A stretch of 64,000 bases of DNA from the NCBI RefSeq assembly GCF_032051675.1, contig NZ_CP116968.1, forward strand, positions 434,001 to 498,000, read 5' to 3'. Source of the DNA: Candidatus Nitrospira neomarina (lineage in GTDB: Bacteria; Nitrospirota; Nitrospiria; Nitrospirales; UBA8639). A model generated the notes under the pieces. It had not been told where the DNA came from. It ran no database searches and worked only from the letters and a program-made list of their open reading frames with translations. This document shows positions 46,742-60,702 of the stretch, piece by piece (positions within the stretch are counted from its first letter, which is position 1; each line of letters begins with the position of its first letter). Both the position numbers and the translations under genes were made by a program.

Positions 46742-48202
46742 TTAGGTAGAATGAAAATCAGGACCATACCGCACTCTTAAACGATTACGAATCCGTTCGG
46801 CTCCCGAATTCCTGGCGACTTCTCTAGCTCGTCTCCATTCCACGATAGTAGGAACGGTTCCCTTGAGGGTGACGGTGCCATTGGAGACGGTAACCCTAAT
46901 ATCCTGCTCAAAAAGACCCGGATCCCACCAAAATGCACGTCTGATCTCTTCCCAAATTTCCTCATCCAATTTATCAGGCGATTGGATTTGGAGGTAATTC
47001 ACGACATTGATGACGCCCTTTACTCTTGCCGCGGCGCGAAGGGTTTGGGAAACTTCGGTAGGAGAATTCAGGTATCCCTCGAGAGATACTTTTCCACTAT
47101 TGGCTGAAATCTTAATTTCGTAGCGATCGATGAGAGGATGCTGATTGAACGCTTCCCGGACCCGTTTTTCCAGATCGCGATCAGTAAGTCGCACGGGAGG
47201 ACGAACTTTAATGAAACTGCGTACCCGCCAAATGCCTTCCGTATTCCGTGTCGTCTCTTCCGCAGCGTATTTAGCGGCCAGGTTATCCACAATTCCGGTA
47301 AGGAAAGCCGTGCCTTCGACAACACGCACGTCGATGTCAACATCCTGAAGGCGGGGTTCATATGTGAAGGCTGTCCGTATCGCCTCTGCTGTATGGGTGT
47401 TTGATGTGAATACATCTTTGCGATGACGAAGCATTTTGTCCCGTGCCCACCATTCAACTTTGAGTGGGGCCACATTGACGTCTTTAACCCCACCCACCCA
47501 GGCATCTCTATAGGCGCTATTCTTTTCAGCCAGGCTCCCCACCGTACCGGTTAACGTCACATGCCCCTGGTCGACCATGATGCCGATGAGGCTTTCATGG
47601 ACCCAGACGTCGGATTGAAGGCGGCGGAAAATTTCCGCTTCGATTTCTGAGTCGGGACGAAAAGCCGGCGGGTTCACGGTAATCCGGCTTCTGAGAGATT
47701 GAACACCTTTTACCGATTTGACTACTTCCTCAGTCAATTGCTTTTCCTGCCAACTTTCTACTGTTCCAGTCAGCATGACGCGACCCTGCCTCACCTGTAC
47801 GGTAATTTCATAAGAGTCTGATGCCGGATCTGAGGCCAAGGCGGCATACACCTTGAATCGCAGTTCTTCGTTGCCAATCCGGCTGGTAGGGCTCACGGCG
47901 ATGGTATTGATAAGCGCTTGAACTCCTCGAATGCTGGAAACAACTTTTCCTGCACGCTCCCTGGCCAGCATTGTAGGGACCTCACCCGACAGCATAACGA
48001 CTCCATTATCTGTATGGACATCAATGCCATTTGAGGGGACCGTCTGATCGACGAGTAAACGACTTTCAATAGCGACGGTAATATCCTTGTCCGTAATGAT
48101 AGTCTGGTGCACTGCGGCCAAACCAACTGATGGCAAGGCCAACATTAATAACATTACCCTTACAGGAAGAGTTATGAAGCCTTGTCGAAAAATGTTTTTC
48201 AT
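46742..48202 (-). CDS. Exported protein with six BON domains
   Basis: 486 residues. A signal peptide (VMLLMLALPSVGLAA) is followed by six consecutive BON units of ~65-75 residues. Each has the same layout: a helix, then V-xxGxVxLxGxV, a second helix and a V-xNxIxV-type end. Examples are NGVVMLSGEV, QGRVMLTGTV, QGHVTLTGTV, EGTAFLTGIV, SGKVSLEGYL and NGTVTLKGTV. Most BON proteins have one to three units. A periplasmic lipid- or envelope-binding role is likely. No strong ribosome-binding site is seen. Confidence 0.9.
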   Translation of the reverse strand: MKNIFRQGFITLPVRVMLLMLALPSVGLAAVHQTIITDKDITVAIESRLLVDQTVPSNGIDVHTDNGVVMLSGEVPTMLARERAGKVVSSIRGVQALINTIAVSPTSRIGNEELRFKVYAALASDPASDSYEITVQVRQGRVMLTGTVESWQEKQLTEEVVKSVKGVQSLRSRITVNPPAFRPDSEIEAEIFRRLQSDVWVHESLIGIMVDQGHVTLTGTVGSLAEKNSAYRDAWVGGVKDVNVAPLKVEWWARDKMLRHRKDVFTSNTHTAEAIRTAFTYEPRLQDVDIDVRVVEGTAFLTGIVDNLAAKYAAEETTRNTEGIWRVRSFIKVRPPVRLTDRDLEKRVREAFNQHPLIDRYEIKISANSGKVSLEGYLNSPTEVSQTLRAAARVKGVINVVNYLQIQSPDKLDEEIWEEIRRAFWWDPGLFEQDIRVTVSNGTVTLKGTVPTIVEWRRAREVARNSGAERIRNRLRVRYGPDFHST

Positions 48203-51251: not shown

Positions 51252-51474
51252 AGAAGTCATGCCCCATACGGAAAATACTGGCGAAGACTTGAAGTGCGGA
51301 AACACATAAAGTCGACGGATTCCGTGATGTTCCGGCCAACGCCCGTTCCCCAACTTCCGATGATTCTTTCATTTTCAATTGATGTATAACGATTTGAAGT
51401 CTCTTCACACGCCAATGTCAGACTTGCATTCGGCAAAAAACTCTGCCCTTCCCGCGGCAAATGGAGGATTTGGA

Positions 51475-52836
51475 TCATTGCTCAAAGGAATCGTAAGGAA
51501 TCTTTTGGGGAAAAGTTCCATTGTCGGAAGGGGAGGCTTGATACGTTGATTTTTCGTCCTCCAACCGCATCTCACCATAAATGAGGTACCCGTTGACTGC
51601 TCGTGCGGATTCGCGTACCCATCCCATGGCTAAGAGAATGATCACCGTCAACCCTGCCAACGTCACCAACATACCCGCCATCCTTCGCGGAGCTTCTGAC
51701 GCGGATCTCGAAACGGTGGCGGGGGGCATTCGCCCAAACACCCGCAAAGAGTACAGCCAATGTCCGAATCCAAAGACCACAAGGCTTGAAAGCGCAAAAT
51801 ATTTATACGGTTGCATCTTCCCCAAAGAATTAATTTCCTGATCGGTCAACCGATTAAGAAGAGGGATATGCTGCAATTGATAGGGCATCGCCAACATCAT
51901 TGCGGCGATCACGATGACCGTGAGTGACAATGGGATGAATCCGATGAAAGATGGAGGCGGTTTTGACTGGGACCGAACCATCTGCATGACATACAGAGAA
52001 CCGACCAGTATTAATAATCCATACAATAACGCCACGACATCAAAAAGCCACGAACGTTCTCCTAGCATCACGGTATAAAAGGCCTGGGGTTGTCCATATC
52101 GCAAATGAAGCAAATATTGATACCCCACCACCGGCATGACCAGCAGAGCTCCATAGCCAATGACAAAACAGTAACTTCCTCCCTTTTGGAAAAAGTTGCG
52201 ATCTGTATCGGTTGTAGATTTCAGATAACGTACGGCACAGATCCCACCAAGGGCAAAGCCCGCCCACGTCAGATTGCCAAACCACCGGTGAAGATCCAAA
52301 TGAATCATCGTGGGATTGAACACATTCTCCCATGCCGAATGAATGGGATCCGGCGTCAGCATATAGGAAGCGGTAATATCGATCATAAACATGGCACTTA
52401 AGGCACAGCCTGCGGCAAGCCATATAAAGGCCAAGTGCACCTTTTGTCTCCACCCATGCCGTCCCCACTCCCAAAGGTAATACCAGGCATAGGCAAAAAT
52501 CGCTTCTCCCAAAAACAATGCGGCCTCTCCCAAAAACGGCCAAAACATGATGTGAAACAGACGGTGCCAGAATTGAGGCCAATAGATGTTCAGAGCAAAC
52601 ACCAGAACGACGCCAAAGAATGAAATGCTCGCAGTGGAAATCACCAATGCAAATGCAATCAGCTTGGCCAACCGGTGGAACCATTCTTTTTCCGTGACAT
52701 AGCTGAATGTTGCCGTCACGGCTCCGATCAAGGATGAACCCACAATGAAGGTGGCAAATAAACTATGAGTCAGGGCAGAAGCGGCAATGGCCACACGCCC
52801 GACGGTAAGAGAAATTTCCAGTGGCTCAAGAGTCAT
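51475..52836 (-). CDS. Cytochrome bd oxidase subunit I-like protein (first paralogue)
   Basis: 453 residues with about nine helices and the CydA layout. His24 (ASALTHSLFATF) aligns with the haem b595 ligand of CydA. Glu104 and Glu111 (LGEAALFLGEAIFA) resemble the acidic pair near haem d. His179 and His183 (IHLDLHRWFGNLTWAG) cover the haem b558 position. The GRQPW quinol-site motif of classical CydA is absent and no long Q-loop is seen. Its start overlaps the previous gene's stop by four bases (ATGA). It is the last gene of the complex-III-like operon. There is no CydB. Confidence 0.82.
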   Translation of the reverse strand: MTLEPLEISLTVGRVAIAASALTHSLFATFIVGSSLIGAVTATFSYVTEKEWFHRLAKLIAFALVISTASISFFGVVLVFALNIYWPQFWHRLFHIMFWPFLGEAALFLGEAIFAYAWYYLWEWGRHGWRQKVHLAFIWLAAGCALSAMFMIDITASYMLTPDPIHSAWENVFNPTMIHLDLHRWFGNLTWAGFALGGICAVRYLKSTTDTDRNFFQKGGSYCFVIGYGALLVMPVVGYQYLLHLRYGQPQAFYTVMLGERSWLFDVVALLYGLLILVGSLYVMQMVRSQSKPPPSFIGFIPLSLTVIVIAAMMLAMPYQLQHIPLLNRLTDQEINSLGKMQPYKYFALSSLVVFGFGHWLYSLRVFGRMPPATVSRSASEAPRRMAGMLVTLAGLTVIILLAMGWVRESARAVNGYLIYGEMRLEDEKSTYQASPSDNGTFPQKIPYDSFEQ

Positions 52837-54005
52837 GGGAATGTTTGGCTTCTAAACGTCGATTCCATCTGATTGTTGATAATTCCATGAATGGTATCGG
52901 GTCCTCTTGCCACTTCCCGGATGGTTCCCATTGTCAAATAGAGGACCAGCGCGGCCAGACCAAGGGCCATGGCGATGAAATGAATGAACGGCTTGTTGAG
53001 TGAGGGCGTTGAGCCACGCATCCAAACAGGAAACACATACCGAAGGTACCAACCCGTTTGAAACAGCACGATAAAATTCACGATACGCCGATACAAAGGA
53101 TACGGCGCCAGAACGACCATCAACACGATTGTCAGCACATAAAATACCTCAGCCCGGTAGGAATGTCCCCGCTCCAGATGAACCGAGCGAAAAATGAGAT
53201 GGCTGCCTAACAGGAGTAGGGCCAGGAGGGTAAATTGCCCTATCACGAGCAGAACCGTTTGGCCTTCATAGAGGTTCTGCAGAATATCCGGCTGTGCATT
53301 CTGTATGTGTTGCGCGAAGACGAAACCGGAGACCGGCTGAATCATCAGGCTCACAATGCCGATGGCCATGCCTGTTTTGATGAGTGTGAGGTAATAGGCA
53401 TCATTCTTTGTTTGACCGGAATGGTTCCAAAGACGCCATCCGGCATACGCCGCCATGACATATCCGGCGATGACCAGGTTTCCAAAGAATCGATGGACCA
53501 TCAAGGGGACCCATGTCGGGTTCCAGAGCCTTGCCCATCCATTATCGCCCTGAACAGGAGTCATCATAAATGAACCGATCCCGTCAAGAATTCCACCCCA
53601 TATCAGAATGAGTACGGCGGCGACCGTTCCCAACGTGATATGCCAGGTGATACTTTTCGAACGAAGCCGATCCCAAAAATGATAATAGGGATACAGGCAC
53701 AACACTTGAATGAAAAACACGATCAAAGCCAGATGCAAAGGATAGCGGAAGTGGTTAAACAGGTAGCTATTTGTGAGAGGGAAAAGTCCGATGAATAATT
53801 CCAGCATAAAGACAGCCAACACGATGCTGGTGGTATACGTCACCAGCGTAAATCGTGTGGCCAGATACGCAAAATCCGTGAAATAAGGGCGACTGCGTCC
53901 CAATCCTTCCGCGATGGGAGCCAGAACCATGAATCCCACACCAAGACTCGCGAGGGTAATATGGGCCAAACTGAAAAAGCCGATCCAAAAGCTTGAACTC
54001 GTCAT
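52833..54005 (-). CDS. Cytochrome bd oxidase subunit I-like protein (second paralogue)
   Basis: 390 residues from the ATG at 54005, which gives a clean first helix and avoids overlap with the cytochrome c gene; the frame is open to 54122. The fold follows CydA: His15 (LAHITLAS), and His171 in MVHRFFGNLVIAG aligned with His183 of its neighbour. The shared block D-x4-(S/T)-x-M-x-TP then NPT-x5-7-H(R)-x-FGNL shows the two are related. The acidic pair is missing, with PLHLALIVFFIQVLC in its place. GRQPW is also missing. It may be structural or bind fewer haems. Confidence 0.8.
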   Translation of the reverse strand: MTSSSFWIGFFSLAHITLASLGVGFMVLAPIAEGLGRSRPYFTDFAYLATRFTLVTYTTSIVLAVFMLELFIGLFPLTNSYLFNHFRYPLHLALIVFFIQVLCLYPYYHFWDRLRSKSITWHITLGTVAAVLILIWGGILDGIGSFMMTPVQGDNGWARLWNPTWVPLMVHRFFGNLVIAGYVMAAYAGWRLWNHSGQTKNDAYYLTLIKTGMAIGIVSLMIQPVSGFVFAQHIQNAQPDILQNLYEGQTVLLVIGQFTLLALLLLGSHLIFRSVHLERGHSYRAEVFYVLTIVLMVVLAPYPLYRRIVNFIVLFQTGWYLRYVFPVWMRGSTPSLNKPFIHFIAMALGLAALVLYLTMGTIREVARGPDTIHGIINNQMESTFRSQTFP

Positions 54006-54034: not shown

Positions 54035-54550
54035 TTAACTCGGCGGATTCCGTTTCTGCATCAAGAGACTGGCGGATGGCGCATGATCCGAAAAAGTCCG
54101 AAGAAATGCCACTAAGGCCCATCTTTCTTCCTGAGAAAGAAATGGTTCAAACGCGGGCATCACATGTTCTCCATGAGTGACAATGGTATACAGCCCCTCA
54201 TCCGGTTTCTGTTGTACCGCCGAAGCGTGAAGATTGGGCGGCAGGTCCGGCAGATACCCGGCAACCGGTCCGTCACCCATTCCCTGTTGTCCATGACAAT
54301 GGGCGCAATTGATTGCAAAGAGCCGTGCGCCATCGAGCGGATTGTTTGTCTGTTCCAGCGGAGATGTCGCAAGGGAAAATGGCGTCTTATTCGGAGAGCT
54401 TTCCGGCGGTGAATGTACCCGTGGAGCTTCTTGATGAGAAAACGACGGTTGTTCTTCCATATCTTCCGAGCATCCCCATAGAAATAGTCCAGCCAACAGA
54501 ATCCAACTCAGGAAACGGTACGAGCGGTTCCAATCAACATGGTTCAGCAT
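54035..54550 (-). CDS. Monohaem cytochrome c lipoprotein (ActE-like)
   Basis: 171 residues. The N-terminal membrane segment ends at Cys27 (FLWGC), a probable lipid anchor. A Pro/Ser-rich linker follows, then a class I cytochrome c domain with CAHCH at 82-86 and a likely distal Met131 (EHVMPAF). In alternative complex III, ActE is such a lipid-anchored monohaem cytochrome that passes electrons on. Here it is encoded between ActD and the two bd-like proteins, so it could hand electrons to or from them. Confidence 0.87.
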   Translation of the reverse strand: MLNHVDWNRSYRFLSWILLAGLFLWGCSEDMEEQPSFSHQEAPRVHSPPESSPNKTPFSLATSPLEQTNNPLDGARLFAINCAHCHGQQGMGDGPVAGYLPDLPPNLHASAVQQKPDEGLYTIVTHGEHVMPAFEPFLSQEERWALVAFLRTFSDHAPSASLLMQKRNPPS

Positions 54551-54564
54551 CTTTCCTCGGTCCT

Positions 54565-55110
54565 TCAGTTACCCGCTATGGTCAGGATTTCCACTTCAGA
54601 AGCCCCGGCTTTTTGAAGCAGGCGGAAAATAGAGTGAGCCTTGGTTGTGTCGTTCCCAACCTGTATTGATAGACCTACCGACCCCTCATCAATGCGCGGA
54701 TCATTTCGAAGGCCCGACTGTTGCACGAAGGCAATTTTGATCGCCGCCGCAAAAAAGGTCACGACAATTGCCATCAGCATCATAGTTTCATAAGAGATAA
54801 TTCCTACTATCGGAATACTCACAATGGGTTTTCCGCCCGTCATTAAGGGATACAACAGCGCGGTTCCTGCGGCGAAAAAAAGGCCGATTCCAATTCCCAC
54901 AATCCCTCCGATAATGGTCAGGCGATGGAGCGGAATGCGAACCGGTTTATTGAGCAGCGAGGATTCCAGCGGAAGAGGGGAGAGAATTTCCATAAGGATA
55001 TCGGGAATGCCCTGGCGTCGTAATTGATCAAGCACAGGAGGGAGAGAAATCGCCGGATCGAATAATCCCAGCACCACCTGTCTGTCTGCCGTCTCAGTGT
55101 TCTTGGGCAT
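54565..55110 (-). CDS. actD: DUF3341 membrane subunit (ActD-like)
   Basis: 181 residues. A soluble N-terminal part (VVLGLFDPAISLPPVLDQLRRQGI, shown in part) is followed by two helices (~65-90, IIGGIVGIGIGLFFAAGTAL; ~110-135) and a C-terminal ferredoxin-like tail. This is the ActD layout of alternative complex III. The start lies inside the end of the NrfD-type gene (17-base overlap), indicating translational coupling. Confidence 0.88.
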   Translation of the reverse strand: MPKNTETADRQVVLGLFDPAISLPPVLDQLRRQGIPDILMEILSPLPLESSLLNKPVRIPLHRLTIIGGIVGIGIGLFFAAGTALLYPLMTGGKPIVSIPIVGIISYETMMLMAIVVTFFAAAIKIAFVQQSGLRNDPRIDEGSVGLSIQVGNDTTKAHSIFRLLQKAGASEVEILTIAGN

Positions 55111-56422
55111 GTTTTTTTCCCAGTTTTTCTTCCCAGATTGAAATCACCGGAACGAATTTCACCGCAAGGGAATACAACAAGAGAGCCAGGGCCAACGTTC
55201 CAACCAGAATGGCGAGTTCGATCAGCGAAGGGAAATACTCATCCCACTGAAATGACAGTCTCGGATGGGCGAGGGGAGGGACAATGATCAGCATGCGCTC
55301 TATATACATACCGAGATTGATGATCAACCCCACCATCATGAGTCCTACCGGCCATTGTCGAAAACGAGGCCATACCAGCGTTAGCAGAGGAACGACATAA
55401 ATACAACTCACCATGAACCAGAACGGGACGGCATAGGCTCCGTAGAGGAGAGAATTCTGCACGGCAATATGATCCGGCACCTTGCCATACCAGATCGTTA
55501 ACTGCTCAGCAAAATACATATAGGCCAGGACCAGGGTCGTGACGAGCAACAATTTCCCGAGTTTCTCAAAATGTTCGGTTCGAACATAATTTTGCAAATG
55601 ATACACTTTCCGCAGAACGTAGAGACCAATCAACACCATCGCGAGGCCTGAATGCACCGCGCCGACCACAAAATAGGGAGCGAAAATAGTCGAATGCCAT
55701 GCCGGCACGAGAGCCATGCTGAAATCAAAACCAACAATGGAATGCACCGAAATCATGACCATCACGATCAGGGGCGTGATAATGCGTATGGCCATTTCCA
55801 ATGTGCGCCACTGCGCTTGAGATCCATGCCATCCGATCGCCAACCAGCGATACACCGTTTTTCTCCAACCGTGAATTCGATCCCGGGCCAGCGCAAAGTC
55901 GGGAATTAAGGGCAGATAAATATAGATGGTGCTTGCCGTCGCATACGTAAAAATGGCTGTCGCATCCCACATCAGCGGAGATCGAAAGTTCGGCCAGAGT
56001 TCCCGTTGATTGGGGTATGGAATCAGGTAATAAAACCGCCAGACCCGACCCAGGTGATAGAACACGAATAACGCGGTGACGAGAAGGGCCACAACGGTCA
56101 TGAGCTCAGCTATGCGCGTGATAGGGCGACGCCATTCCGCATTGGTTAACCGCAAGACACCGGAAATAAACGTTCCGGAATGGCTGACGCCGATCCAGAA
56201 AACGAACGAGGCAATATAGGAACCCCAGAAAATGGGATGATGCAAATCGGTTTGTCCGATTCCGGTTTGAATTTGGTAGGTCCAGGCTCCTGCGCCCGCT
56301 GCGACAAAGCAGGACAGCACGCCTACCCAGAGATAATAGGTCCAGGTCGTGGTCTGAAGCGGCGAGAGAAGGTCCCGGTTGATCTTGGGCATTTCCTCCC
56401 ACACCGTTGGTCGGTCGGTCAT
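55094..56422 (-). CDS. actC: NrfD/PsrC-type quinone-interacting membrane subunit (ActC-like)
   Basis: 442 residues with about ten helices. Family signatures are GVSHSGTFISGVLRL near 80, WPNFRSPLMWDATAIFTYA near 145 and HSIVGFDFSMALVPAWHSTIFAPYF (shown in part) near 230. The N-terminus is cytoplasmic and polar. In alternative complex III, ActC and ActF hold quinone and form the proton path. Only one NrfD-type gene is in this operon, so the usual ActF is absent. The start overlaps the ferredoxin gene stop (ATGA). Confidence 0.9.
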   Translation of the reverse strand: MTDRPTVWEEMPKINRDLLSPLQTTTWTYYLWVGVLSCFVAAGAGAWTYQIQTGIGQTDLHHPIFWGSYIASFVFWIGVSHSGTFISGVLRLTNAEWRRPITRIAELMTVVALLVTALFVFYHLGRVWRFYYLIPYPNQRELWPNFRSPLMWDATAIFTYATASTIYIYLPLIPDFALARDRIHGWRKTVYRWLAIGWHGSQAQWRTLEMAIRIITPLIVMVMISVHSIVGFDFSMALVPAWHSTIFAPYFVVGAVHSGLAMVLIGLYVLRKVYHLQNYVRTEHFEKLGKLLLVTTLVLAYMYFAEQLTIWYGKVPDHIAVQNSLLYGAYAVPFWFMVSCIYVVPLLTLVWPRFRQWPVGLMMVGLIINLGMYIERMLIIVPPLAHPRLSFQWDEYFPSLIELAILVGTLALALLLYSLAVKFVPVISIWEEKLGKKHAQEH

Positions 56423-57156
56423 TCCGACAGCCTCCGCAAATACGTCACGGCCGGATGCGTACCCAGAGATTCCATCAGATGAAATCCCCTCCGGCTCTTC
56501 TTCAAGTGAGACACCCGGCTGTCGGGATCATTCTGATCACCAAATATCAGGGCGGATGTGGGGCAGGATTGCACACAGGCGGGTGTGATTTCTCCATCCC
56601 TGACCCGGCGGCCTTCTTTATGAGCCGCTTCCTTTCCACTTCGAATTCGTTGCACGCAAAACGTGCATTTTTCCATCACACCACCGGATCGAACGGACAC
56701 ATCCGGATTCAACTGCTCCGCCAACGGCTCGTCCCAACTGGGGTCGAACCAATTGAATTGACGGGCGACATAGGGACAGTTATTCCCGCAGTATCGAACA
56801 CCGATACAACGATTATAGACCTGAGCATTTAAACCCTCAGGGGTGTGATACGAAGCATAGACGGGACAGACGGGTTCGCATGGAGCATCGTCACAATGCT
56901 GGCACATGACCGGAAGGAATTTGGCTTTGACGTTGGGATAGTCTCCTTCCCAATATCGCTCAATGCGAATCCAATTGATCGCTCGCCCTTCGGCCGCTTC
57001 CTCCTCCCCGGAAATGCGGATATTGTTTTCGGCATGACACGCCACCACACAGGCTTCACATCCGGAGCACCGGTCCAGATCGACGACCATTTCCCACTTA
57101 TAGGGGGATGCCGCCTGTTTTGAGTATTCATTTGTTGCTTGAGGATCTTGACTCAT
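56419..57156 (-). CDS. Iron-sulphur ferredoxin subunit (ActB2-like)
   Basis: 245 residues with four cysteine groups: CSGCEACVVAC (~33-43), CQHCDDAPCEPVC (~90), CIGVRYCGNNC (~117) and CTFC...CVQSC (~164 and ~195). This is the DmsB/PsrB arrangement, binding four Fe-S clusters that form a wire. In alternative complex III this unit is fused to the large subunit as ActB; here it is a separate gene. The start overlaps the stop of the large subunit by one base (TAATG). Confidence 0.92.
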   Translation of the reverse strand: MSQDPQATNEYSKQAASPYKWEMVVDLDRCSGCEACVVACHAENNIRISGEEEAAEGRAINWIRIERYWEGDYPNVKAKFLPVMCQHCDDAPCEPVCPVYASYHTPEGLNAQVYNRCIGVRYCGNNCPYVARQFNWFDPSWDEPLAEQLNPDVSVRSGGVMEKCTFCVQRIRSGKEAAHKEGRRVRDGEITPACVQSCPTSALIFGDQNDPDSRVSHLKKSRRGFHLMESLGTHPAVTYLRRLSE

Positions 57157-59351
57157 TACAAACCTCCCGTTTCCTGTATACGCCCGAAGACAGGGTTCTT
57201 TCCGGACTGCTCCAACATCGGCAACCGCGATCCGCCTTTGATACGCTCAACACGCACGCGCGTCCCCCCTGTGGCCAGAGATCCTGATTGCTGATCAAAA
57301 CTTGGACCAAGCAAGACCATGGGATTCATTCCGCGCCCCTGGGCATATCGTCCGTACGCACGGTGCCCCTGGCCCATGGGAACGGCAATCATGTCGGGAT
57401 GCAGACCTGGAAACACCATGACGGACGCTTCGATCGATCCATAATCCGATGTGACTCGAACCCGGTCGCCAGGATGTATTCCTAACGCCTGGGCCGTGGT
57501 TGGATTGAGTTCAATCCAACTTCCCCACATGCCGGTGGTCAAAGGATCCGGCAATTCTTGAAGCCAGGGACGATTGGCCCCACGCCCGTCATGCAATCCC
57601 AGGGACGGATAGGGATAACAATACAGAGGGTAGTCGGAGGAGTTCCCCAGGAATTGCGGCGGTTCATAGGTGACGGAGGGTAGGACCGGGTTCATCTGAC
57701 GCATGGGGATGTTGGAAGGCCACAACCCGCCTTTCTGCAAAGTCTCTCTCCATCGGGTATCAACTGACTGTGGCGAATCATGCTTCGTAAGGACAGTCTG
57801 CCACCGGCTCTTCAGCATATCGTGATGGGTATTCCAGGGGACCCGTTCACGGAGAGATCCGCCCAATCGATGAGCGGCCTCCAACCACACATCACCGATG
57901 GGCCTTGTGTCATAGAGAGCACGCACCACAGGCTGCGAGGCACTCCAGATCGGCACGGGGGTCGTATCCTGTTGAACAACATCACCCCACGATTCCAGCG
58001 GGTCATGATCCGGCAGAATCAGATCAGCCATCAGCGTCGAGTCATCCAGGAAGGAACTGAAGCTCACGATGAACTGCGCATGGTCAAACACCCGCTCAAA
58101 CTTCAGTGACGGTGGAAGGGTGAACAGAGGATCCGCGCGATACAGATGAAGCAGCGTGCGGGAACCTTGCTCAAATTCCCGGGCCAAATCCAGGAGCGTG
58201 CGCTCACTGGCCAATCCGGGTCGGGCGAGGTCCACCGGCGAGTCAGGAGGTTCCATCCATTGGAGTCCGCCGCGTCGCCCAATAGCGCCGATCATCACGT
58301 TGAGTGCATTAATGAGGATAAGCGTTGATGTGCCGTTGGTCTGGGCCGCAGCCGGACCTCCACCCAGAACAAGCGGAGCATTCGCTGATGCCAGTTCATG
58401 GGCCACTTGAGTCATGACCTCTTGCGAGACTTCTGTGTTGGCCGAAATATCTTCCAATGAGAAAGCAGAAAAGGTGTGGTGAAAAGATGGCCGGTGAAAA
58501 GAAGAAAGTCCTGTCAGGCCATCCCGTAATAAAACCTGTCCAATGCCCATCGCCAATAACCCTTCGGTTCCCGGCCTAAGAGGAATCCATTGATCCGCAT
58601 TCGACGCGGTGAGCGATAGACGTGGCTCCACCTGAATGAAACGACCTCGAACCAACGGACGACCCTGCCGGAATTTTCCATAGGCCACACCAAAGGATAC
58701 TGGTGAGAGCCAGTGTTCTAGGAATGGGGCACCGAATGACAAGAGGTAATCCGCATTTGCCAGGTCATAATATGGAAGGGCATGGGTTCCAAAGCTGAGA
58801 TGGTTGGCTGTTCTGAGAGTCTGTTCCCCCGTGGATTCATACATCACGAGACGACCGGATAGGGAATCCATCATCGTGGTCAACAGGCTGGCTAATGTGC
58901 CTGACATCGGACGGGCAACCATGGCGGACTTTCCGGCATGGGTTCCGAGTTGCTCCACCCATTCTGCTAGGCCTTCTTCCCAGGTGATCGGACGGAATTG
59001 GCCTTGACCTCTTTTGCCTTCACGTCTGAGAGGCCCTTGAAGGCGGTCGGGATTGTACAGACCCTGAAGAGCGGCTTGTCCTCGGGCACAGAGTTTTCCC
59101 TCATTGACCGGATGTTTGGGATTGCCTTCAATTTTTTTTGCGCGCCCTTCCATGACGCGAACCATGGTCCCGCAACCGGCTTCGCATTCCTGACATGTGG
59201 AGGCATACCAATTCGCCACTCCGGGAACAATATCCTCGTCCGGCAACAGATAGGGCACCAGGTTATGCACCTCTCGCTCACATCCCGGCAGAGATGACCC
59301 GGCTGCTGTCAGTCCAAGAATCTTAAATAAAGTCCGGCGGTATAGGTCCAT
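57156..59351 (-). CDS. Molybdopterin-oxidoreductase-like large subunit (ActB1-like)
   Basis: 731 residues. An N-terminal Arg-Arg signal-like segment (YRRTLFKILGLTAAG) may be a Tat signal. It is followed by a complete CX2CX3CX27C set (Cys53, 56, 60, 88) able to bind a 4Fe-4S cluster, then the CISM large-subunit fold. No Cys, Sec or Ser is evident at the usual molybdenum-ligand position; the region reads STGEQTLRTANHLSFGTH. In studied alternative complex III the equivalent domain carries no molybdenum. ActB is normally one fused chain; here it is split. Confidence 0.87.
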   Translation of the reverse strand: MDLYRRTLFKILGLTAAGSSLPGCEREVHNLVPYLLPDEDIVPGVANWYASTCQECEAGCGTMVRVMEGRAKKIEGNPKHPVNEGKLCARGQAALQGLYNPDRLQGPLRREGKRGQGQFRPITWEEGLAEWVEQLGTHAGKSAMVARPMSGTLASLLTTMMDSLSGRLVMYESTGEQTLRTANHLSFGTHALPYYDLANADYLLSFGAPFLEHWLSPVSFGVAYGKFRQGRPLVRGRFIQVEPRLSLTASNADQWIPLRPGTEGLLAMGIGQVLLRDGLTGLSSFHRPSFHHTFSAFSLEDISANTEVSQEVMTQVAHELASANAPLVLGGGPAAAQTNGTSTLILINALNVMIGAIGRRGGLQWMEPPDSPVDLARPGLASERTLLDLAREFEQGSRTLLHLYRADPLFTLPPSLKFERVFDHAQFIVSFSSFLDDSTLMADLILPDHDPLESWGDVVQQDTTPVPIWSASQPVVRALYDTRPIGDVWLEAAHRLGGSLRERVPWNTHHDMLKSRWQTVLTKHDSPQSVDTRWRETLQKGGLWPSNIPMRQMNPVLPSVTYEPPQFLGNSSDYPLYCYPYPSLGLHDGRGANRPWLQELPDPLTTGMWGSWIELNPTTAQALGIHPGDRVRVTSDYGSIEASVMVFPGLHPDMIAVPMGQGHRAYGRYAQGRGMNPMVLLGPSFDQQSGSLATGGTRVRVERIKGGSRLPMLEQSGKNPVFGRIQETGGL

Positions 59352-59363
59352 GGCCGTGTCCTT

Positions 59364-59882
59364 TTACTTGTGACAGGTCCAACAATCGTGAGAGGCTCCT
59401 CGTTGTTCATGGCAGGTCAAACACCAGCCCATTTCATAGGTGGGAGCTCTCGGGGTGCTCGACATGCGGGCAACATTTCCATGGCATGAGGTGCAGGACA
59501 GGCCCGCGAACAGATGCATTTCATGCGTGAAGTAGACATGATCCGGAAGGCGCTGCAGTCTGACCCAAGGGATCGGCCGTTTTACTTTCCAATAAATCTG
59601 CAGCATTTTCATATCCGGTGTCGTTTCAGAAAGGGACTCATGACATGTCTGGCACAAAGCCATGGAAGGGACACCGGCCACTGGAGATTGTGTGGCATAC
59701 CGGTGACAAAATTGACAATGGATATTCAACGTTCCCGCATGTTGTCGATGACTGAAACGTACAGGTTGCTGATCTTGAACAGGCAGGTCGGCACTTCCGA
59801 TGGAATAGAGTGCACCGATCCCCATGGCAAAACCTCCGGCTAATAACGCCAAGATGACTCCTTTTATTCTTCCAGACTTCAT
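59364..59882 (-). CDS. actA: Pentahaem cytochrome c subunit (ActA-like)
   Basis: 172 residues. A single N-terminal helix (VILALLAGGFAMGIGALYSI) anchors the protein. Five CxxCH motifs start at Cys56, 77, 130, 154 and 167, with extra histidines (FSHRQH, FTHEMHLF) as sixth ligands. This is the ActA pattern of alternative complex III, which relays electrons between the Fe-S subunit and the outer cytochrome. It is the first gene of the operon, 12 bases ahead of the large subunit. Confidence 0.92.
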   Translation of the reverse strand: MKSGRIKGVILALLAGGFAMGIGALYSIGSADLPVQDQQPVRFSHRQHAGTLNIHCQFCHRYATQSPVAGVPSMALCQTCHESLSETTPDMKMLQIYWKVKRPIPWVRLQRLPDHVYFTHEMHLFAGLSCTSCHGNVARMSSTPRAPTYEMGWCLTCHEQRGASHDCWTCHK

Positions 59883-59967: not shown

Positions 59968-60411
59968 TTACCGGGCCTTGAAATTCTGAGGGATTTGATC
60001 CGTCGTTGAGTAGAATTCCCATATGAGGAATTTCCACTTTTCATCCTTCATGTCCGGCCAATCATTTTTATTAAAGCCTGGGGCCTTTTCTAATTTTTTC
60101 GGCTGAATATCCAGAGTCAAATACTCGCGATCCGGTTGGTGGGCAAGCGAGGCCCAGGGGACAGCAAAGAGCTTATCTCCCATACCTAAAAACCCTCCAA
60201 AGGATAAAACTGCATACCCGACTTCTCCATTGCTTCCAATGACCAGTTCCTCAATCTGCCCAATATCCTCACCTTGCAAATTCTTGACTGATTTTCCAAC
60301 CAGCTCACTCGCTTTGTAGGAGCCCTGGTTAGGGGAAAAAGCCATAGCTTGGGAACAGGGCTCAGGGATGAAGATGAAAGCGAAAAAAGTCATTAAAAAG
60401 GATACCGGCAT
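59968..60411 (-). CDS. Exported PRC-barrel protein
   Basis: 147 residues from the ATG at 60411; GGAGG five bases upstream rules out the ATG at 60423, which overlaps it. A signal peptide (PVSFLMTFFAFIFIPEPCSQAMA, shown in part) precedes a PRC-barrel domain (~25-100, KASELVGKSVKNLQGEDIGQIEELVI, shown in part). PRC barrels bind partner proteins or RNA; exported ones are common in stress sets. It lies 85 bases upstream of the actA-like gene on the same strand. Confidence 0.85.
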   Translation of the reverse strand: MPVSFLMTFFAFIFIPEPCSQAMAFSPNQGSYKASELVGKSVKNLQGEDIGQIEELVIGSNGEVGYAVLSFGGFLGMGDKLFAVPWASLAHQPDREYLTLDIQPKKLEKAPGFNKNDWPDMKDEKWKFLIWEFYSTTDQIPQNFKAR

Positions 60412-60702
60412 AGAGACCTCCATCGTGCGGCGGATTCATAGGTCCTTTTTACTAACATTCACTTAAGAAGCAGGGTACTCTGTTCAATGTAGATTCCTAT
60501 TCCACTCACTAAAATAGATAAAATGTGTTGGTCCATCAGCACTTTGTCTAGCATCCTCTAAAGACCCCTCTGTAAACGTAGGTTAACTATGAAGGAATCA
60601 CGAAATTGGCACAGTCAAGGGTTTTTGATAGTGGCGGATCCCATCGAAATCCACTAAAAGGCAGCAGGCTGATTTTGTCATACATGGATGAAGGAGGCGC
60701 AG

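Follow-up and report, generated by a model that had tools for sequence, protein, structure and literature searches.

In Candidatus Nitrospira neomarina, the two genes at 51475-54005 of the 64,000-nucleotide stretch analysed here (the window) close an eight-gene minus-strand operon whose first six genes encode alternative complex III (ACIII), and together they probably encode an oxygen reductase of the OR-N5 CydAA' type that draws its electrons from quinol by way of ACIII. In the Nitrospirales, two adjacent CydA paralogues that directly follow ACIII and have no CydB make up the OR-N5 arrangement reported from comparative genomics in 2025 (PMC12342949, ISME J), and we assign the pair to OR-N5 from the gene position described there. 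Bacterial order, pair, place after actAB1B2CDE and the absence of ActF, ActG and CydB are all the same as in that description, with no difference found; the CydAA'-ACIII arrangement is a correct rediscovery of what had already been published. Beyond that paper and PMC10839748, our analysis contributes a residue-level contrast of the two halves, a co-occurrence count, a measure of their co-divergence and a comparison with related pairs that accompany Rieske and cytochrome b genes.

The eight operon genes, ActA, B1, B2, C, D, E, CydA' and CydA, run head to tail on the minus strand; they overlap slightly or lie no more than 29 bases apart. ActA (59364-59882) is a penta-haem c7-type cytochrome with five CxxCH motifs, while ActB is split into a molybdopterin-oxidoreductase-like subunit, ActB1 (57156-59351), and an iron-sulphur subunit, ActB2 (56419-57156), whose 15 cysteines fit three [4Fe-4S] clusters and one [3Fe-4S] cluster. 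ActC (55094-56422) is the NrfD-type quinol-binding membrane subunit, ActD (54565-55110) carries PF11821, and ActE (54035-54550) is a mono-haem c-type cytochrome with a lipobox-like start and one CxxCH. The reading frames of CydA' (52833-54005) and CydA (51475-52836) overlap by 4 bases. Close homologues of CydA' begin at 54005, which is therefore probably its true start and was the one chosen in an earlier, sequence-only reading of this DNA; a longer open reading frame, up to 54122, is probably spurious. Just past the last gene of the operon lies a terminator-like hairpin (51442-51461, minus strand), a consensus match alone in a region where the hairpin count is at chance level, and the next gene downstream is convergent and encodes a CBS-domain protein. 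Elsewhere in the window, the gene for a PRC-barrel protein immediately precedes actA on the same strand (59968-60423, minus strand), and 46742-48202 (minus strand) encodes a secreted-looking protein of 486 residues with six BON domains. The source genome comprises 4.8 Mb in a single contig, and its relatives are Nitrospirales.

Both reading frames of the pair, taken for CydA-like paralogues in the sequence-only reading, are real, and the CydA fold of their products is confirmed by profiles and by structural models. In Pfam, CydA matches Cyt_bd_oxida_I (E 1.1e-19), restricted to its first ~240 residues, and CydA' matches no family; the family profiles of CydA and CydA' match the G. thermodenitrificans CydA chain 5doq_A with E-values of 1e-10 and 2e-7, respectively. 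AlphaFold models (mean pLDDT 87.0 for CydA' and a middling 76.6 for CydA, low beyond residue 415) superpose on 7ose_A with a VIA Z of 28.8 over 317 residues (rmsd 3.3) for CydA and of 32.5 over 325 residues (rmsd 2.8) for CydA'. For both proteins the best structural matches are CydA chains from ten bd oxidase structures, at Z 25-29 for CydA and 29-32.5 for CydA', followed by the NrfD-like chains of ACIII at Z ~18-19, the ACIII structure 6btm being among the matches. Aligned to each other, the two halves share 25% identity over 371 columns. A recent local duplication is ruled out by this identity of about 25% together with the separate groups that the two halves form, distant Manganitrophaceae versions included.

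Residue correspondences come from alignments to 5doq_A and to the two canonical CydA proteins of this genome. Profile alignments place H24 and H183 of CydA, and H15 and H171 of CydA', on H21 and H186 of 5doq_A. We take H24 and H15 to be equivalent to E. coli H19, H183 and H171 to H186, E104 and E111 of CydA to the E99/E107 pair, and E409 of CydA and E364 of CydA' to E445. The haem-binding histidine positions are kept in both proteins, as had been proposed: H24, E104, E111, H183, M341, K345 and E409 are invariant across 19 homologues of CydA, and H15, H171 and E364 across 18 homologues of CydA'. CydA thus has all three counterparts of the Glu pair and E445 and retains every canonical haem- and oxygen-site residue bar the Met ligand of the low-spin haem, whereas CydA' keeps E364 alone of these glutamates. 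That the Glu pair is confined to one half holds, but the claim that hydrophobic residues replace it in the other is only nearly right, since the positions in CydA' are A93 and Q100, and among its relatives both vary with no conserved Glu, the second being Gln, Met, Leu or His.

As we read the alignment, the canonical MxxxG motif, which supplies the Met ligand of the low-spin haem (M393), matches L352-G356 of CydA, with Leu (L352) at the Met position, better than it matches an invariant GKMQPxKY motif. The latter contains M341, eleven residues from L352; it might simply provide the M393 equivalent, but that M341 or K345 serves as the replacement ligand is a guess. CydA' has no residue aligned to the canonical Met ligand. 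Because it retains H15, H171 and E364, it may nonetheless bind haem and need not be the purely structural subunit that had been considered. The other role suggested for it, that of an electron-entry half, finds no footing, given that CydA' lacks both the Met-ligand equivalent and the Glu pair and that CydA holds the fuller set. Five more bd-like CydA paralogues are encoded near 4.05, 2.62 and 2.95 Mb of the genome (L003, L004, L006, L007 and L008). They probably include the OR-N1 and OR-N2 types and, unlike the OR-N5 pair, have a Ser in place of E445 and just one of the two glutamates of the pair; CydA is the most canonical-looking of the non-canonical bd-like paralogues in this genome.

What sets the pair apart from canonical CydAB is the lack of CydB, of the Q-loop and of GRQPW, together with a Met ligand that is not at its usual position; with canonical enzymes (5doq, 6rko, 7ose) CydA shares the fold, the two His ligands, the Glu pair and the C-terminal Glu. 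The GRQPW quinol motif is indeed contained in neither protein, although the segment is homologous and degenerate, the canonical ExGRQPW corresponding to E409-SAR-AVNGY in CydA and to E364-VAR-GPDT in CydA'. The only two CydB matches in the genome adjoin its two canonical CydA genes, and no CydX-like open reading frame was seen in the gap 3' of CydA. A heterodimer of CydA and CydA', with one oxygen-reducing and one altered half, as the sequence-only reading had proposed, fits all of this evidence as well as the published view of OR-N enzymes, in which the OR-N1 and OR-N2 CydA proteins are hypothesised to form CydAA' (PMC10839748).

The immediate electron donor was suggested to be the adjacent cytochrome c rather than quinol, and OR-N enzymes in general have been considered likely to oxidise cytochrome c (PMC10839748). 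This part of the proposal is plausible in view of the lipoprotein-like ActE encoded just upstream. For the cluster as a whole it does not carry over: since the same operon encodes the quinol-oxidising ACIII, the complete unit is probably a quinol oxidase. The haem counts of ActA (five haems c) and ActE (one) match those listed for ACIII, and H123, S148 and D153 of ActC are spaced like the quinol-site residues H139, S164 and D169 of R. marinus ActC (PMC8076601). In the mechanism we propose, quinol would be oxidised at ActC, and electrons would pass through the iron-sulphur clusters of ActB to the five haems of ActA, from there to the mono-haem ActE, on to the low-spin haem of CydA (H183) and finally to a putative oxygen-reducing di-haem site (H24, E409). 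E104 and E111 of CydA would serve the proton path, and CydA' would be the paralogous partner in the place of CydB.

Alternatively, CydAA' could itself oxidise quinol at a remodelled site, standing beside ACIII but not fed by it. Other proteins of the CydA fold are quinol oxidases, and CydA is the best structural match of both halves; we nevertheless regard direct quinol oxidation as unlikely, given the degenerated GRQPW segment, the extra helices that occupy the expected place of the Q-loop in the model of CydA, and the position of the genes at the end of an operon for ACIII, which should itself oxidise quinol.

The linkage to ACIII extends beyond this genome. Loci from relatives were collected by a contig scan with two short peptide patterns, and the resulting records are labelled as Nitrospirota-type, save one that is labelled uncultured Nitrosospira sp., isolate NOB2. 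Those Nitrospirota loci that cover the whole set preserve the order ActA-B1-B2-C-D-E-CydA'-CydA, and partial loci agree as far as their sequence extends. ActD and ActE are merged into one stop-to-stop frame in several loci, and in L079 and L084 the ActB1, ActB2, ActC or ActE frames are broken into overlapping pieces, possibly through sequencing or assembly errors. Of 59 related genomes, 10 contain ActD, and precisely these 10 are also the ones with close CydA orthologues, an identity of sets with a chance of 1/C(59,10)=1.6e-11 if phylogeny is ignored. In a tree, CydA and CydA' each occupy one side of a branch, and their distances correlate over 18 loci (r=0.92), a value reached in 0 of 5000 permutations. 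A CydB-like partner that regularly co-occurs with the pair, the outcome named beforehand as counting against a CydA-CydA' heterodimer, was looked for and not found; with CydB confined to canonical CydA and the linkage to ACIII conserved, that question is answered in favour of the pair.

The gene for ActF usually lies directly after that for ActE. Here CydA' sits directly after ActE, and ActF is absent from the operon, which has a single NrfD-type gene among its genes. ActF and ActG are likewise missing from the ACIII of Nitrospirales (PMC12342949). CydA', with CydA, might therefore mainly stand in for ActF, ACIII's second membrane subunit, in proton translocation or docking, with oxygen reduction secondary or absent. 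The models of both halves do match ActF, at a Z of about 18-19, but they match CydA much better (Z 25-32), and CydA has invariant residues at the haem sites, as in part does CydA', whereas ActF is a haem-free relative of NrfD; we consider such a substitution quite improbable. A role in acting on another small molecule such as NO, or in defence against oxygen or nitric oxide instead of energy-conserving respiration, is very unlikely: bd oxidases are known to handle NO, and Nitrospirales have several bd-like paralogues of unknown role, but the steady linkage to ACIII speaks for electron transfer that conserves energy.

A second genomic context bears on how the OR-N5-type reductase would receive its electrons. 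In three more distant loci, L086, L087 and L088 (isolate nzgw269 and Manganitrophaceae), CydA' and CydA are set apart from each other, and in two of them (L086:2859-7119 and L087:297-4558) the gene order is CydA' - Rieske - cytochrome b - CydA, as assigned with Pfam on the L086 genes. No CxxCH-bearing frame of at least 80 residues occurs in L086, L087 or L088, the first two being short and the frames of the third broken. The order in L086 and L087 points to a bc-type module that lacks cytochrome c1 and is connected to a CydAA' pair of the same kind. Because this distant pair adjoins Rieske and cytochrome b genes with no CxxCH protein nearby, ActE is, as judged from these loci, not a universal donor to such pairs, and on the same gene-order evidence the constant partner of CydAA' is a quinol-oxidising module, not any particular cytochrome c. 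The Rieske/cytochrome b loci fit the remark that TO_3 and TO_4 of Candidatus Manganitrophus, which like the present cluster combine bd-like proteins with such components, contain complex III or ACIII components (PMC9040806); L079 and L088 are themselves loci from a Candidatus Manganitrophus genome. The cluster described here is of the ACIII kind, and the Rieske/cytochrome b kind of L086 and L087 is a separate, more distant clade.

Tentatively, CydAA' might be an oxygen-reducing plug-in that assembles into a physical supercomplex with the quinol-oxidising complex encoded beside it, of whatever type. That complex would be ACIII here, with CydA' replacing ActF; for the distant clade it would be a Rieske/cytochrome b module without cytochrome c, the Rieske protein passing electrons directly to a bd-like haem. 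A supercomplex in which ACIII feeds its own haem-copper oxidase is known from Flavobacterium; there, as here, ACIII is encoded with a terminal oxidase, but here the oxidase is bd-like and ActF is missing. Among bd-like enzymes, OR-N1 and OR-N2 of Nitrospira and Nitrospinota resemble the present pair in being paired CydA paralogues without CydB that are thought to oxidise cytochrome c (PMC10839748). Our literature search turned up no biochemical study of an OR-N5 enzyme.

The two halves differ in a conserved way, CydA being complete and CydA' altered, and this pinpoints the exact residues to mutate. To our knowledge, the nitrite oxidisers of this order for the most part have no haem-copper oxidase and rely on bd-like enzymes that are biochemically uncharacterised. 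An ACIII-CydAA' unit would work as a quinol oxidase that adds one more coupling site, perhaps used with donors of lower potential, for instance hydrogen or formate.
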